Origin: Candidatus Gastranaerophilales bacterium
Lineage (GTDB): Bacteria; Cyanobacteriota; Vampirovibrionia; Gastranaerophilales; Gastranaerophilaceae
NCBI GenBank assembly: GCA_947630045.1
Contig: CANRGC010000012.1
Coordinates: 1-55,582, forward strand
DNA length: 55,582 nt
Direction of reading: 5' to 3'
Under the pieces are notes generated by a model that saw nothing but the letters and a program-made list of their open reading frames with translations, searched no databases and was not told the origin of the DNA. The position numbers and the translations under genes were made by a program. Shown one piece after another: positions 2,126 through 30,548 of the stretch. Position 1 is the stretch's first letter, and the number at the start of each line of letters is the position of its first letter.

Positions 2126-2152
2126 TAAAGTTTTAATTTCAATTGCCGATTA
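2126..2152 (+). promoter_or_regulatory. Sigma-28 (FliA)-type promoter of the CHAP-domain gene
   Basis: TAAAGTTT (2126-2133), an 11-bp spacer, then GCCGATTA (2145-2152). The FliA consensus is TAAAGTTT-N11-GCCGATAA, so this is a 15/16 match with exact spacing, about 40 bp before the GTG start. Seen directly; activity is inferred. Confidence 0.72.
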
Positions 2153-2190: not shown

Positions 2191-3180
2191 GTGACTTTTA
2201 AGATTGGTAATTTCACAATTGAAACCAAAGAAATCTTTGACGCTCTGAAAGAAGTCGGTATTACAAAAGAAGATCAGCTCAAACAGTTTGACAAAGACGA
2301 CGACAAAATTTTGACAGAAGATGAGCTTACGGAAGTTCTTCTTCAAGATGAAGAAGAAAACGAAGATGATAAGGAAACTTCTTCAACCTCGTCTTCTTCG
2401 GCGTCATCAGGTACATCAGGCTCAACGGGTGACGGCACTTCCGTTGAAGAACAAATTCAGATGTATGAAGAAATGAATGCCAGCTTGAGAGAACAGTTAA
2501 ACAGGCTTTGTTCTTCAATGGGCACAAGCGTTGATATGTCTGCAATTGACAACGCTCTATCCAGCATTCAAAATATTAAAGACCAAATTGCCGCAAATGA
2601 CTCCAACATTTATAAGCTTTTATTACAAGCGGAAGGCAAACTTACAACATCTTCTTTATCCGGCGTAAACGGTCTGACTTCCACGGGAAGTTCATCACTC
2701 GTTTCTTCTTCAGGCTCTGCTTCGGGCATTGCAAACTATGCACTGCAATATGACGGCAAAACGCAAGCCGAAATGCAATCTATTATGACAGGAAAAGGAT
2801 ACAGATTTGACTGGGGCGTATGGTGTGCAGATTTCGTTTCTTTCTGTACAAAAGAAGTGTATGGCGAAAACGCCCTCAGCGGTTGTTCAAACACGGCTTC
2901 ATGCTGGGGAATTGGTACATGGGCGGAAGATAACGGAATTCTTATGGATTCAAGACGCGGCACTACTGTCGATGTAAGTAAATTGAAGCCCGGCGATTAT
3001 ATTCTCTATAACGCAAGTGGCGGCGAATGGTATCATGTCGGCATTGTTACTGGCGTTAACAGTGACGGCACGGTTAACACGATTGAAGGAAATACAACGG
3101 GCGGCAACTGTGCTTCTCATAGCCATGTATCCCCGAACGGCGCTTCATTTGTATTAATTCATAATAAATACGGAACTTAA
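2191..3180 (+). CDS. CHAP-domain peptidoglycan hydrolase-like protein with EF-hand-like amino-terminus
   Basis: Probable cell-wall amidase/endopeptidase. The GTG start is supported by AAGGA at 2184-2188. Residues about 34-46 (FDKDDDKILTEDE) form an acidic EF-hand-like loop, followed by an acidic run and a Ser/Thr/Gly-rich linker (about 65-85). A helical segment rich in Gln and Asn follows. The carboxy-terminal CHAP domain has the catalytic Cys in WCADFVSFC and His in WYHVGIV, with an Asn-containing EGNT as likely third residue. No classical signal peptide is visible, so export would need another route. The preceding near-consensus sigma-28 promoter suggests co-regulation with a flagellar-type system, where wall hydrolases such as FlgJ act. 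It is convergent with dgt and the ends overlap by 4 bp. Confidence 0.82.
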   Translation: MTFKIGNFTIETKEIFDALKEVGITKEDQLKQFDKDDDKILTEDELTEVLLQDEEENEDDKETSSTSSSSASSGTSGSTGDGTSVEEQIQMYEEMNASLREQLNRLCSSMGTSVDMSAIDNALSSIQNIKDQIAANDSNIYKLLLQAEGKLTTSSLSGVNGLTSTGSSSLVSSSGSASGIANYALQYDGKTQAEMQSIMTGKGYRFDWGVWCADFVSFCTKEVYGENALSGCSNTASCWGIGTWAEDNGILMDSRRGTTVDVSKLKPGDYILYNASGGEWYHVGIVTGVNSDGTVNTIEGNTTGGNCASHSHVSPNGASFVLIHNKYGT

Positions 3181-9510: not shown

Positions 9511-9538
9511 TAAAGCATTGACTTCATATTGTCGATAA
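9511..9538 (+). promoter_or_regulatory. Sigma-28-type promoter of MGMAASQAR gene 1
   Basis: TAAA (9511-9514), 16-bp spacer, GTCGATAA (9531-9538), 30 bp before the ATG. The -10 matches FliA GCCGATAA at 7/8. The same layout precedes the paralogue at 30484. A competing sigma-70 reading (TTGACT at 9518) lacks a good -10. Confidence 0.6.
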
Positions 9539-9568
9539 ATAAAGTGTCAAAACTATGGAGAAACGATT

Positions 9569-10885
9569 ATGGGTATGGCAGCAAGCCAAGCAAGGTTTTT
9601 AACCTTGACGGCAAGAAAAACAAACGTTGAATGGGAAGGTCAGCAGGTTAACCAGCAGAGAACTGCGTTAGCTAATGAAAGTGCAAACCTGTTTAATCAA
9701 TTGTCTGCACTTGAAGTGCCTACTCCGCCTTCTGTTAAAGACTATACTAAAACAGTTTATAAATTTTCAACTTCCGATTTGGATACTTCTTCTCAAACGG
9801 GAGAAACGGAATATAAAATCGTTGATTTATACTCAACCCCCGCAGGTCGTTACGCAAGAGTTGAACATACAAAATATACTTGGACTTCAGGCATAACATC
9901 TTCTTATGCGGGCGCTGTTTCTAAAGATGAACAGGGTAATTATAGCGTTTCTATTACGGGAACTGGTTTAACCGCTCCTGCAAGAGAATATGTCTTTACT
10001 CCGGACAGCATTCAATTTGAAACCCAACTTGAACCTGATACAAAACTTAAAATCGGCGATGTTGAATTTTCGCTCGACGGTGCGGGAAGAAACATTGTCG
10101 GCGAAAAAGACGGCAAAACATACAGATATGAAGCCGAAGACCTCGGAAACGGAAAATATAGAATTAAAATTCAAACAGACGCTATTAAAGCGGGCGAAAA
10201 AGATTCACAAATTCCTGATACTGATATCCCCGGTGGCGCAAAAGTAACATATGACGAAAAAACAGGCGAATATACGGTTACCTTGAATGGTTCAGAGTCA
10301 ACACAAGACTTAGATTTGAATGTTGCAGGACTTTACACAAACGGTCAAAGTACTCTTTCACCTTCAATTTTTGAAGACGGCTTTTTCAACTCTGGTCAAG
10401 CGGAAGGAACAAAATATAATCAGCCCGTTCTTTCTTATGTTTTAAACGGCGTAACATATTATGTTTCCGCACAAGAACTTGCTAACAATTATTTCAACGC
10501 TTCTTACACAATTTATCAAAAAGCCGAAACCGTAACGGAAGACTTCCCTTGCGAATATTCCACAGCAGCGTCGGGTCGTGTTCAAACAATTACCCTTGTT
10601 GATGGCAGAGGCGAACAACATACATACGATCTTTCCGTTGAAAGCGAAGAAGATGAAGCAAGTTACAAAGAAGCAATGCTTGATTATGAATATAACAAAT
10701 CTTTATACGAACAGGAAGTAACAAGAATAAACGCAAAAACCGAAAAAATTCAGGAAGAAGACAGAACTCTTGAATTGAGGTTGAAACAGCTTGATACTGA
10801 ACAAAGCGCTCTTAAAACAGAAATGGACGCCGTATCTAAAGTTATTGAAGATAACATTGAAGCTACATTTAAGACGTTTGCTTAA
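9569..10885 (+). CDS. MGMAASQAR-family protein 1 (conserved ends, variable middle)
   Basis: Function unknown; 438 aa. Residues 1-70 and the last 80 are nearly the same as in the protein at 29102-30484, while the central 280 or so differ. The amino-terminal block (MGMAASQARFLTLTARK, then GQQVNQQR and LANESANLF) looks helical. The carboxy-terminal block is a long coiled coil with LRLKQLDTEQSALKTEMDAV and ends in TFKTFA. The middle is rich in Thr, Tyr, Gly and Asp, as in beta-rich surface domains. There is no signal peptide. Conserved helical termini around a variable centre is the architecture of flagellar axial proteins, so export by a flagellar-type apparatus is a hypothesis only. It has GGAGA before the ATG, a sigma-28-like promoter and a terminator, so it is probably monocistronic. 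Confidence 0.8.
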   Translation: MGMAASQARFLTLTARKTNVEWEGQQVNQQRTALANESANLFNQLSALEVPTPPSVKDYTKTVYKFSTSDLDTSSQTGETEYKIVDLYSTPAGRYARVEHTKYTWTSGITSSYAGAVSKDEQGNYSVSITGTGLTAPAREYVFTPDSIQFETQLEPDTKLKIGDVEFSLDGAGRNIVGEKDGKTYRYEAEDLGNGKYRIKIQTDAIKAGEKDSQIPDTDIPGGAKVTYDEKTGEYTVTLNGSESTQDLDLNVAGLYTNGQSTLSPSIFEDGFFNSGQAEGTKYNQPVLSYVLNGVTYYVSAQELANNYFNASYTIYQKAETVTEDFPCEYSTAASGRVQTITLVDGRGEQHTYDLSVESEEDEASYKEAMLDYEYNKSLYEQEVTRINAKTEKIQEEDRTLELRLKQLDTEQSALKTEMDAVSKVIEDNIEATFKTFA

Positions 10886-11072: not shown

Positions 11073-11876
11073 ATGTCTTACAAAAATGACCATGAATTAG
11101 TTATTGCAAATAAATACGGCGCAGCAAGTTCACTTGCAAAAGCGCAGATGTATGAAACATATGACAGATTGCGTGATATTACGGTTTCAGGCTCCACAGC
11201 CACAGGTTCGGGCTTTGGCACCGCAGGAGGCTTTTTGTGGCAGCTTGCAAGCATGTTTTCACCTTCTTCGTTTTCATCTGTTTTTGGCGGCAATTCTTTT
11301 ATGAATATCCCCGGAACCTCATATTGGTCACCTGTTACTGGCGCTACTTCTTCTTTTTACGGTGCAAATAATTCGTTTGGTATTGGAAATCTTGGTTCTT
11401 ATTCCGGCTTTCCCTCGGGCGCAGCTTCCGTCAAATCAGGTTTAACCGGTGCAGCCGCAGGCGTTCCCACGGGCTTTGCAACAAGCGCCTCATCCATTGC
11501 GGGGTTATCATCTGCCGCATACGGGCTTGGGCTTGCAAGCACGGGCTTTAACTTTGGTGAGTCTTTCCTTTTACCTACGGCGGGCTTAATTGCGGGTTTG
11601 GGCGGAATTATGCAGTCCATGGCTCCGTATCTTGGAACTTCGGGGCTTGCTGCCATACTTGCGGGTAATATTTTTGAAGGCACGGGCTCTGCCGCTTTGA
11701 GTGCATATCAAAATTTAACGGGACGTGTCACGACAAATGCTGATGCTATTCTTTCAAATAAAGTAAGAAATATTGAAACTGTGGTTAAAATGCTTGATAC
11801 ACAGGCAGATATCGTAAGACAATCTCTGAAAGACAGTATTGAAAGCGACAACGAAGCTATTTCCGACATTAAATAA
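11073..11876 (+). CDS. Gly/Ser/Ala-rich protein with LDT-type carboxy-terminal coil, function unknown
   Basis: Not recognised. It has 267 aa, ATG start with TTGAGG upstream. The amino-terminus (about 1-38) is helical and polar with YGAASSLAKAQ. Residues about 40-200 are low-complexity, dominated by Gly, Ser, Ala, Thr, Phe and Tyr. They contain hydrophobic stretches such as GLIAGLGGIM and GLAAILAGNIF that could be membrane-inserting or translocator-like. The last 45 residues form a charged helix including ETVVKMLDTQADIV, which lines up with ELRLKQLDTEQSAL in the MGMAASQAR proteins. That similarity and the location between two members suggest it belongs to the same system. No signal peptide and no sigma-28-type site are seen upstream. 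Confidence 0.7.
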   Translation: MSYKNDHELVIANKYGAASSLAKAQMYETYDRLRDITVSGSTATGSGFGTAGGFLWQLASMFSPSSFSSVFGGNSFMNIPGTSYWSPVTGATSSFYGANNSFGIGNLGSYSGFPSGAASVKSGLTGAAAGVPTGFATSASSIAGLSSAAYGLGLASTGFNFGESFLLPTAGLIAGLGGIMQSMAPYLGTSGLAAILAGNIFEGTGSAALSAYQNLTGRVTTNADAILSNKVRNIETVVKMLDTQADIVRQSLKDSIESDNEAISDIK

Positions 11877-11919: not shown

Positions 11920-11946
11920 TAAAGAGAACTGTTTTTTTTCCGATAT
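11920..11946 (+). promoter_or_regulatory. Possible sigma-28-type promoter of the 12056 operon
   Basis: TAAA (11920-11923), 15-bp spacer, TCCGATAT (11939-11946), so the -10 matches GCCGATAA at 6/8 with exact FliA spacing. The leader would be about 100 bp. The overlapping TATACT could instead be a sigma-70 -10. Confidence 0.4.
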
Positions 11947-12055: not shown

Positions 12056-12325
12056 TTGCAGGACCTTATTTCTGAACATATCAAACGAATGAGAAATTTT
12101 CTCAACTTTACGAAAAATTATTTCATTCGCCATAATCCGATAGAAAGCTTTATCAAAAGCACGGTTGCTTCTCTGAAAGATATGCTTTCTCTCAGAAAAA
12201 AGAAAAGGTTGGTCCAATACCGTTTAAATTACCAACTTGGTAAGCTTAAACAAATGGAAAAACTGATTGCTGCGAACAACGATCACGTTTTCCTGAAGGG
12301 ACGAAAATTTAACGAAACAAGGTAA
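12056..12325 (+). CDS. Small basic helical protein, function unknown
   Basis: 89 aa, not recognised. The TTG start is fixed by a strong AAAGGAG at 12043-12049, seven bases upstream, and no ATG fits better. The protein is Lys/Arg-rich and predicted helical, with no signal peptide and no transmembrane segment. It is followed 4 bp later by the minimal MGxxxxxAR protein, so the two are translated from one message and may act as partners, perhaps a chaperone-like or scaffold role. That role is inference from size and position only. Confidence 0.66.
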   Translation: MQDLISEHIKRMRNFLNFTKNYFIRHNPIESFIKSTVASLKDMLSLRKKKRLVQYRLNYQLGKLKQMEKLIAANNDHVFLKGRKFNETR

Positions 12326-12329
12326 AATT

Positions 12330-12653
12330 ATGGGTCTTCTACTTGCCATTGCCAGAAAAGCTCAACTTAAATCGGAACTGTTTATGTATGAACACAAAAT
12401 GGTTCTCATTTCTCGTGCAAAATCTGATTTGGCGCTCAAAATTTCTGATTATGAAATGATAAGAAGCAACTATGACCCAAATTCGCCTGAGATGAAAACT
12501 TTTAACGAACGTATTGAAAGGCTTAATCAAGTCGATAAAAGGCTTGATGAACAGTATAATAAACTTCAAACTCAAATTCAGCTTTTGGAAGCTGAATATA
12601 ACTCCTGTGAAGAAATGTTTAAGTCTAATTTACAAAGAATGTACGGACATTAA
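12330..12653 (+). CDS. Minimal MGxxxxxAR coiled-coil protein, same family without central insert
   Basis: 107 aa, mostly coiled coil. Without gaps its start matches the two large family members at M1, G2, A8, R9, L13, E21, L34 and A35. Its end, RLDEQYNKLQTQIQLLEAE then MFKSNLQRMYG, lines up with the LELRLKQLDTEQ...TFKTF end of those proteins. It therefore looks like the two conserved termini joined directly with no variable domain. Flagellar-type rod and hook proteins vary in this way, but homology to them is not shown. It sits 4 bp after the TTG-start gene and its end overlaps the convergent GerMN gene by 4 bp. Confidence 0.7.
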   Translation: MGLLLAIARKAQLKSELFMYEHKMVLISRAKSDLALKISDYEMIRSNYDPNSPEMKTFNERIERLNQVDKRLDEQYNKLQTQIQLLEAEYNSCEEMFKSNLQRMYGH

Positions 12654-29101: not shown

Positions 29102-30484
29102 TTATCCGAATGTTTTGAAGGTAGATTCCGTATTGTCTTCAATAACTTTTTGAACTGCGTCCATTTCGGTCTTGATTGCGCTTTGTTCAGTATCTAACTG
29201 TTTCAAGTGAAGTTCAAGCTGTTTATCCTGTTGTTGGATAGTTTCAGTTTTAGAGTTCAAGTCAGATGTTTGTTTTTCATATTGAGCTTTTTGATATTCG
29301 TAATCTAACATTGCTTGATTATATGCTTCTTCGTCTTGAACACTGCTTACGGTAACTTCAAACTCTTTGTCTATTCCGTCAACGTTAACAACAAGAGAGT
29401 TAATTCTGCCGTTATCGCTTTTGCCGTAGCTTGATACTTTAAATATGTCAGTTTGTGTTTTTGGATTGTTTACAACGTGATATGAAGTCATATTGTTGTC
29501 TTTGCTTGAAATTGTGCTGTCTATGCCTTCTTCATCACTTGGCGTATGTCCGGAATAGATTGATAAGTTGCCTTGAGCATCATATACAATCTGGTGATAT
29601 CTGCTATTACTTCCATCATTTAATCTGATTTCAGTGCCTGCAAGTTCGGGGCAGCTTTTTGGTATATATTTCAAAAAATCGTCACGGTCAGCTTTTGTCG
29701 GAACTGTAACATATACGCTCTTTTCGTATCCGTTTTGTGCTGCGTTTTCTTTATTTTTTGAAACCATTGTGCAGTTAATTGTTTCGCCGTTAAGTGATGA
29801 TAAACCTTTAATCGGTTCGTTGATTGCCGTATTAGGATCGTCTAATGCAGCGCCCAATTTTGATAAAAAGTCAGTAACTGCAAGTTTTTGTTTGTCTTCG
29901 TCTGAAAGTTGAAGAACGTGTTTTTCGCCGCCTTCCATATAATAGTAAACGTATGCGTCTTTATTAATTGACCCGTTTTCGCCTCTTATTGAGTCAGCAA
30001 AATCTTTGTTGCTTGCAGCGAGTGTTTCATATGTTCCGGGGTCATTTTTAACTTGTTGTGAGAAAACTTGATAGCTTCTGCCACTAATTGTAATATATGA
30101 GCCGTTAGCTCTGTCTTCGTTTGAGCCTTTGGTTGAAATAGCTGCGCTTGAGTTTTTAACCCAGCTGTCAACGGAAGCTTGATAGTTGTCTTCATCCCAT
30201 GACAAGCTTACTTGGTCACCTGAAGGTGCGCTTTGAATGTCATTAAAGGTGTAAGTTCTTTGTGTTCCGTCAACTTCCGAAGTTGAGAAGCTGTACTCTG
30301 TTTTGTTAAAATCTTGTACACGTGGAGGGGTTGGAACGTCTAATTGGCTTAATTGTGTGAAAATGTTAGCACTTTCATTTGCCAATTGTAACCTCTCCTG
30401 ATTGACTTGTTGTCCTTGGTATTCAACGTTTGACTTTCTGCCGGTCAAAGTTAAAAACCTTGCTTGCGATGCTGCCATACCCAT
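29102..30484 (-). CDS. MGMAASQAR-family protein 2 (conserved ends, variable middle)
   Basis: 460 aa, paralogue of 9569-10885 in the opposite orientation 19 kb away. Residues 1-70 (MGMAASQARFLTLTGRKSN, GQQVNQERLQLANESANIF, VPTPPRVQDF) and the last 80 (MLDYEYQKAQYEKQ, LHLKQLDTEQSAIKTEMDAV, ending TFKTFG) are almost unchanged. The middle 300 residues share little and are rich in Ser, Asn, Gly and Asp. Strong selection on both ends with divergence in the centre suggests that the ends make a common assembly while the centre is exposed. AAGGAGA precedes the ATG; the gene has its own sigma-28-like promoter and a terminator, so it is monocistronic. No signal peptide. Function unknown. Confidence 0.8.
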   Translation of the reverse strand: MGMAASQARFLTLTGRKSNVEYQGQQVNQERLQLANESANIFTQLSQLDVPTPPRVQDFNKTEYSFSTSEVDGTQRTYTFNDIQSAPSGDQVSLSWDEDNYQASVDSWVKNSSAAISTKGSNEDRANGSYITISGRSYQVFSQQVKNDPGTYETLAASNKDFADSIRGENGSINKDAYVYYYMEGGEKHVLQLSDEDKQKLAVTDFLSKLGAALDDPNTAINEPIKGLSSLNGETINCTMVSKNKENAAQNGYEKSVYVTVPTKADRDDFLKYIPKSCPELAGTEIRLNDGSNSRYHQIVYDAQGNLSIYSGHTPSDEEGIDSTISSKDNNMTSYHVVNNPKTQTDIFKVSSYGKSDNGRINSLVVNVDGIDKEFEVTVSSVQDEEAYNQAMLDYEYQKAQYEKQTSDLNSKTETIQQQDKQLELHLKQLDTEQSAIKTEMDAVQKVIEDNTESTFKTFG

Positions 30485-30520: not shown

Positions 30521-30548
30521 TTATCGGACGACTTTTATTTTTTCTTTA
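30521..30548 (-). promoter_or_regulatory. Sigma-28-type promoter of MGMAASQAR gene 2
   Basis: On the minus strand TAAA (30548-30545), 16-bp spacer, TCCGATAA (30528-30521). The -10 matches FliA GCCGATAA at 7/8 and the spacing equals that of the paralogue at 9511-9538, 37 bp before the ATG. Confidence 0.6.

Follow-up and report, generated by a model that had tools for sequence, protein, structure and literature searches.

Here we describe a family of proteins with a predicted flagellin-like fold in a 55,582-nucleotide stretch of DNA from a Candidatus Gastranaerophilales bacterium (the whole stretch is called the window below), together with the export machine that appears to serve it. The full-length window proteins P0001 and P0003 and their paralogues probably serve a second flagellar-type type III export system as axial-type structural substrates, and it is likely that this system is kept by all sampled Gastranaerophilales, flagellum-less ones included. 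Type III export and axial proteins are already known kinds of thing; that flagellum-less gut relatives of the Cyanobacteria keep both a second export machine and a flagellin-like-fold family suggests a secreted surface structure that has so far gone undescribed, and we infer that the family proteins are exported, polymerise and are exposed at the surface. Gastranaerophilales occur widely in the guts of humans and animals, and if the family is displayed on the cell, a diverse flagellin-like surface protein would be shown to the host without flagellation. The system would, in addition, be a fresh point of comparison for how flagellar export machines lose motility and gain other functions.

P0001 (438 aa, 9569..10885, plus strand) and its second full-length paralogue in the window, P0003 (460 aa, 29102..30484, minus strand), are intact open reading frames with the same type of ends around different middles. 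In a global alignment of the two, 52/70 of residues 1-70 (74%) and 53/80 of the last 80 residues (66%) are identical, against 61/262 aligned residues (23%) in the middle; the z-scores against shuffled sequence are 31 for the N-terminal part, 23.5 for the C-terminal part and 4.1 for the middle, and the pair was also compared by BLASTP. An earlier note on this DNA had called the ends almost unchanged, which is slightly too strong for identities of this order, but the contrast it drew between ends and middle holds and lies far above chance. Its suggestion that the middle is the variable part is borne out by 57 family members, in which the ends are conserved and the middles vary in sequence and length. 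A genome-wide count of paralogues adds two full members to P0001 and P0003, on other contigs (C5:57072 and C1:91184), both of which align with P0001 in the motif MGxAASQARxLxLTA and in the C-terminal pattern D..LE..L.Q; a 179-aa protein on contig C3 matches P0002 weakly.

P0002 (107 aa, 12330..12653, plus strand), also an intact reading frame, is homologous to the joined P0001 termini and has no middle domain. It carries the residues M1, G2, A8, R9, L13, E21, L34 and A35 named in the earlier note, and a profile-profile comparison with the joined family ends (hhalign) gives 98% probability and E 1e-12 over 106-109 columns; BLASTP, a comparison of two sequences, gives a weak match at 1e-5. None of P0001, P0002 and P0003 has a signal peptide, just as had been observed: hydrophobic N-terminal segments are absent, the maximum 15-residue Kyte-Doolittle mean at the three N-termini being 0.57-0.85. 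Between P0001 and P0002, on the same plus strand, lie a 267-aa Gly/Ser/Ala-rich protein (11073..11876) with helical-looking ends, a hydrophobic Gly/Ala-rich middle and no match in Pfam or NCBIfam, and an 89-aa protein (12056..12325); together the four types of gene are called the module. Searches of Pfam, NCBIfam and PHROGs with five window proteins returned chance or coiled-coil matches only, so a phage structural origin is unsupported, and we rejected it.

An AlphaFold model of P0001, built with 57 family sequences (mean pLDDT 83, pTM 0.61), predicts an N-terminal helix at residues 2-47, a variable, beta-rich middle at 60-361 and a C-terminal helix at 363-437. The best 1000 chains of its Foldseek list were re-aligned structurally with VIA. 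Each of the 24 top-ranking PDB entries was then a flagellar axial protein, of the hook-filament junction, flagellin, FlgL, FliD, hook or rod (Z 10.0 down to 5.8), and an unrelated entry first appeared after them, at Z 5.1. Many of the top axial rows have an rmsd of 1.6-3 Å over 100-120 residues that include both P0001 termini; in several of the rows for flagellin the alignment covers 103-114 residues at 1.6-2.6 Å, again with both ends of the model, and the alignments to flagellin, FlgL and FlgK span model residues 1-438. The predicted structure of P0001 has the D1-type pairing of N- and C-terminal helices around a variable middle, and as a pair the two helices fit onto the D1 region of flagellin, FlgL and FlgK, so that the termini pack as the earlier note had supposed. 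The Foldseek E-values of the model are themselves not significant (best 3e-3, with an Achromobacter flagellin third at 7.5e-3), and flagellins are frequent in that list. For a predicted model of this kind the weight would seem to lie in the uniform identity of the top rows; middling Z values alone would not convince.

Like flagellin (FliC), FlgL and FlgK, the family combines conserved helical ends, a variable and presumably exposed middle and the lack of a signal peptide. The family differs from flagellin in its alignments, which begin near flagellin residue 49, so that D1 is matched and D0 left unmatched; it is present in genomes that have no flagellin; and it lacks axial matches in Pfam, Flagellin_N and Flagellin_C finding nothing in P0001, P0002 or P0003, and the flagellin, hook and needle families finding nothing in any of the 57 members at E 0.01. 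The likeness to axial proteins that had been proposed therefore stands in predicted structure and fails in sequence, and we say of the family that it works like flagellin, not that it is a flagellin. The model of P0002 is a helical hairpin (3-45 and 53-105) with a Pro-rich turn, for which Foldseek returns generic helical hairpins (the IpaB coiled coil, YscO, HP0958 and occludin), and such a fold appears too simple to classify as needle, chaperone or substrate. Sequence searches of the PDB with the family, with the P0002 hairpin and with the FliG-position protein described below gave nothing relevant.

The genome of the host, a gut bacterium, has no match to flagellin (PF00669), and FlhA, FliP, FliQ, FliR, FliF, FliE and FliH are all present in it. 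An operon on contig C9 runs SLT-FliE-FliF-(FliG position)-FliH-FlhA, with confident Pfam matches for FliE, FliF (YscJ_FliF plus YscJ_FliF_C) and FliH and with the full FHIPEP protein (E about 3e-217) last, while FliO, FliP, FliQ, FliR and a FliN/SctQ-like protein form a cluster on contig C13, adjoining ATP synthase. Like the flagellar export apparatus, the second system has homologues of FHIPEP, FliP, FliQ, FliR, FliO, FliH, FliE and FliF and, in several families, rod proteins of the FlgB/C/F/G kind; in the basal families its operon opens with two FlgF/G-like proteins, FlgB and FlgC, and weak rod-protein matches occur in 115/117 genomes of the order. Unlike the flagellar apparatus, its FlhA scores below the NCBIfam FlhA cut-off in the host (691.7 vs 772.1) and forms a separate clade, and neither Pfam, NCBIfam, a PDB sequence search nor a comparison with E. 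coli FliG identified the protein in the FliG position as a FliG. With the injectisome (SctV/SctR/SctJ) it shares the export-gate families, and the host FliQ scores equally against the SctS model; unlike the injectisome, it has rod proteins, FliE and a FliF that is full-length and includes the C-terminal domain, and its FlhA falls below the SctV cut-off (594 vs 692) and outside SctV in the tree described below. The host FliR is below both the flagellar and the injectisome cut-offs, and FliP and FliE are above the flagellar ones. In several relatives FliI follows the divergent FlhA. The FliG-position protein (L018:12221-13207) is conserved across the order.

Across the 117 genomes of the order, FHIPEP is found in all and FliP in 116. 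Flagellin is present in 43 of them; unlike the flagellum, the second system therefore occurs without flagellin in 74/117 (PF00669). FliP comes in two or three copies in 39/43 genomes with flagellin and in 0/74 without. Flagellin-bearing genomes usually have two kinds of FlhA and two kinds of FliP, both FlhA kinds being full-length, and the genomes without flagellin have the divergent kind of FlhA and FliP only. In a midpoint-rooted FHIPEP tree of 49 proteins, some of whose deep branches are long, the divergent proteins of the order and that of G361, a relative from the same class, form one group with 100/100 support, its sisters being the single FHIPEP of family f8 and that of f10; the order's canonical FlhA makes up a second group (100/99), and SctV stands apart from the divergent FlhA with 100/100 support. 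The eight sampled f8 genomes have no flagellin. Tree and distribution together indicate that the divergent system is older than the order and not simply the leftover of a decayed flagellum, and they suggest that the set retained in non-motile members is mostly a separate machine with its own FlhA and FliP.

The flagellar late genes are transcribed by sigma28 (FliA) from the consensus TAAAGTTT-N11-GCCGATAA, and like those genes the family has sigma28-like promoters, with a spacer that is usually one base longer than in the consensus. The pattern TAAAG-N14/15-(G/T)(C/T)CGA lies upstream of P0001, P0003, the C5 and C1 members (in the C1 member far off, about 180 bp upstream), all four of which are first in their units, and of the pair of 89-aa and 107-aa genes. 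Before P0001 the site is TAAAG-N15-GTCGATAA (9511..9538, plus strand), which ends 30 bp before the start codon and whose first base, 9511, is where the interval singled out by the earlier note begins; before P0003 it is TAAAG-N15-TCCGATAA (30521..30548, minus strand), ending 36 bp before the start; and upstream of the 89-aa and 107-aa genes it is TAAAG-N14-TCCGATAT (11920..11946, plus strand). Judged by TAAAG-N14/15-GCCGATAA, P0001 and P0003 match 7/8 in the -10 element. Counted over all loci examined, among which relatives are not independent, 39/147 family genes vs 12/1454 others have a site 20-125 bp upstream of the start (Fisher 1.5e-32); a stricter pattern is found before 30/149 family genes and in 0/149 on the reverse strand, which served as the control. 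Upstream of the 89-aa gene the site is present in 5/50. A search of the whole window with one mismatch allowed gave 4 matches where 2.87 were expected, which is not above chance, so only the position-aware counts are informative. In genomes of the genus-g2 type the upstream regions more often have a sigma70-like TTGACTTT...ATTA pattern, and sigma28 control accordingly does not extend to the whole family. A sigma28-like motif occurs at one rod operon of the second system as well (L100:7833).

A further site of this type in the window, TAAAG-N14-GCCGATTA (2126..2152, plus strand), lies 38 bp before the gene at 2191..3180 (plus strand), which encodes a 329-aa protein with an EF-hand-like N-terminus, a C-terminal CHAP amidase domain and no signal peptide. 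This gene is a possible member of a sigma28-like regulon, and its product is a candidate for export by the second system as well. A homologue at L113:2572 likewise has a sigma28-like promoter.

A profile search found the family in 117/117 Gastranaerophilales genomes, spread over 37 genera and commonly with 5 to at least 14 matches per genome among the matches listed. Outside the order it is nearly absent: members turned up in 1/10 further genomes of the class (G361), and about two hundred genomes from elsewhere in the phylum gave a single marginal case. Nearly all relatives that carry a name are Candidatus Gastranaerophilales of animal guts. G361, of family f9, is a single-contig genome outside the order that holds flagellin, canonical FlhA, divergent FlhA and family members together. 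In the sister lineage f8 the divergent FlhA is present and no family member is detectable. One genome of the order, G045, rated 99% complete, has FliP, no full FHIPEP match and only weak family matches, for which either a gap in the assembly or a loss may be responsible. A record in a phage collection, MW495066 (L224, 126602-138928), encodes a 109-aa member whose N-terminal block runs through a LEPDSDEA turn into the C-terminal block, so that the family can be seen as a helical hairpin with different domains inserted; homologues of the 267-aa and apparently the 89-aa window proteins come after it. The record is named Microcystis phage MaAM05, has 53% GC and carries smc, scpA, scpB, secDF and acpS. 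It looks like a mislabelled bacterial contig, and on account of those genes we rejected it as a phage home of the family.

In relatives, the module lies within about 10 kb upstream of FliE-FliF-FliH-FlhA. Module and FliE-FlhA operon share the same 20 kb in 17/20 sampled genomes of the main family, which were chosen by handle order and not by result, and one of the 3 exceptions is a truncated contig. The module is near the operon in 0/19 further regions from other families and genera; it does not adjoin the operon in other families or in several genera of the host's own family, and in the host genome the two are apart. The genes between module and operon are conserved too, so the linkage is one inherited arrangement, and the linked genomes, to which this gene order is common, are not independent of each other. 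As evidence for a link between family and machine it is moderate.

We envisage that family members, made from sigma28-like promoters as late flagellar proteins are and having no Sec signal, would pass through the FlhA-FliPQR gate and the rod of a machine consisting of FliE, a FliF-like MS ring, the FliG-position protein, FliH, the divergent FlhA, FliO/P/Q/R and the FliN/SctQ-like protein, with rod proteins of the FlgB/C/F/G type in several families. Once outside, the terminal helices would pack with those of their neighbours as flagellin D1 helices do, and the variable beta middle would be exposed. The P0002-type hairpin, having no middle, could be a cap, a junction, a seed or a minimal subunit, and the 267-aa protein, at a guess, a cap or a membrane-contacting partner. 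More tentatively, we put forward that this may be a type III machine of a third kind, distinct from flagellum and injectisome alike and common to the whole class of non-photosynthetic cyanobacterial relatives, in which a flagellar-type gate and rod, acting independently of the flagellum, build a surface appendage from their own flagellin-like proteins with swappable outer domains.

Export through the second system could also deliver proteins that do not assemble. The family might be secreted in soluble or host-binding form, in the manner of effectors or adhesins, with the flagellin-like ends acting as an export module for variable cargo; this we regard as unlikely. It would suit the number of paralogues, from several to over a dozen in a genome, and their unrelated middles, the scattering of the family loci and the fact that genes with the same promoter include the CHAP amidase (2191-3180) and several others whose products have no obvious structural role. 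However, the best structural matches are to proteins that form filament, hook and rod, with both terminal helices superposed, and an export tag alone would leave the cargo-free minimal form (P0002 and the MW495066 protein) unexplained. It seems more improbable still that the export genes are a decaying flagellar remnant, the family an unrelated cytoplasmic coiled-coil protein and the linkage mere inherited gene order, even though the linkage block includes unrelated purH-like and deaminase-like genes and the family does not adjoin the operon in the host genome. Practically all 117 genomes have an intact apparatus, which in the flagellated ones is a second copy, both kinds of FlhA are full-length, and sigma28-like promoters combined with an axial fold would be unexpected for unrelated coiled coils. 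The axial-protein reading, which the earlier note had suggested from the arrangement of ends and middle, is supported by the predicted fold, by a type III export apparatus in a genome without flagellin and by the sigma28-like promoters.

In the literature covered, subscription papers being outside its scope, no type III system other than the flagellum is described in these bacteria. According to the published view, part of the flagellar gene set is retained in non-motile members (PMC4040986), and flagellar gene reduction in the group may be ongoing (Di Rienzi et al., PMC3787301). The gene list behind the "flagellum" phylogeny of the latter study has two flhA entries and the order flgG-flgG-flgC-fliF-fliH-flhA-fliI (PMC3787301), which matches the second system; the conclusion from that phylogeny may therefore need re-reading. 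Among systems known elsewhere, the "Myxo" NF-T3SS of Myxococcales, which has neither filament, secretin nor recognised needle and whose function is unknown (Abby and Rocha 2012, PMC3459982), resembles the second system in being a flagellum-derived export system without a filament. The Myxo systems lack FlgBCDEK and FliEG (PMC3459982), whereas the second system keeps FliE and rod proteins of the FlgB/C/F/G type and, unlike them, has an axial-type protein family of its own. The abstract of a report on non-flagellated Lysobacter enzymogenes describes flagellar export components linked to twitching motility (PMC7277350), which like the second system are kept without a flagellum; it mentions no axial-type protein family, unlike what is seen in Gastranaerophilales.

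Some further genes of these bacteria touch on the same subjects. Two proteins, one in the host genome (contig C2, L019:8542-9993) and one at L227:15539-17020, have of FlhA the cytoplasmic domain only, preceded by an N-terminal domain of another kind. Most genomes of the order contain a second, partial FHIPEP match like these, and in G013 such a protein is near FlgE- and FlgD-like genes. In other relatives, sigma28-like promoters precede genes at L127:13665, L132:8154, L140:5218, L161:13288, L129:4845 and L166:6878, which are possible additional secreted proteins. The L161 and L129 genes encode related small proteins, and the product of the L166 gene has, by eye, a lysozyme/transglycosylase-like stretch.
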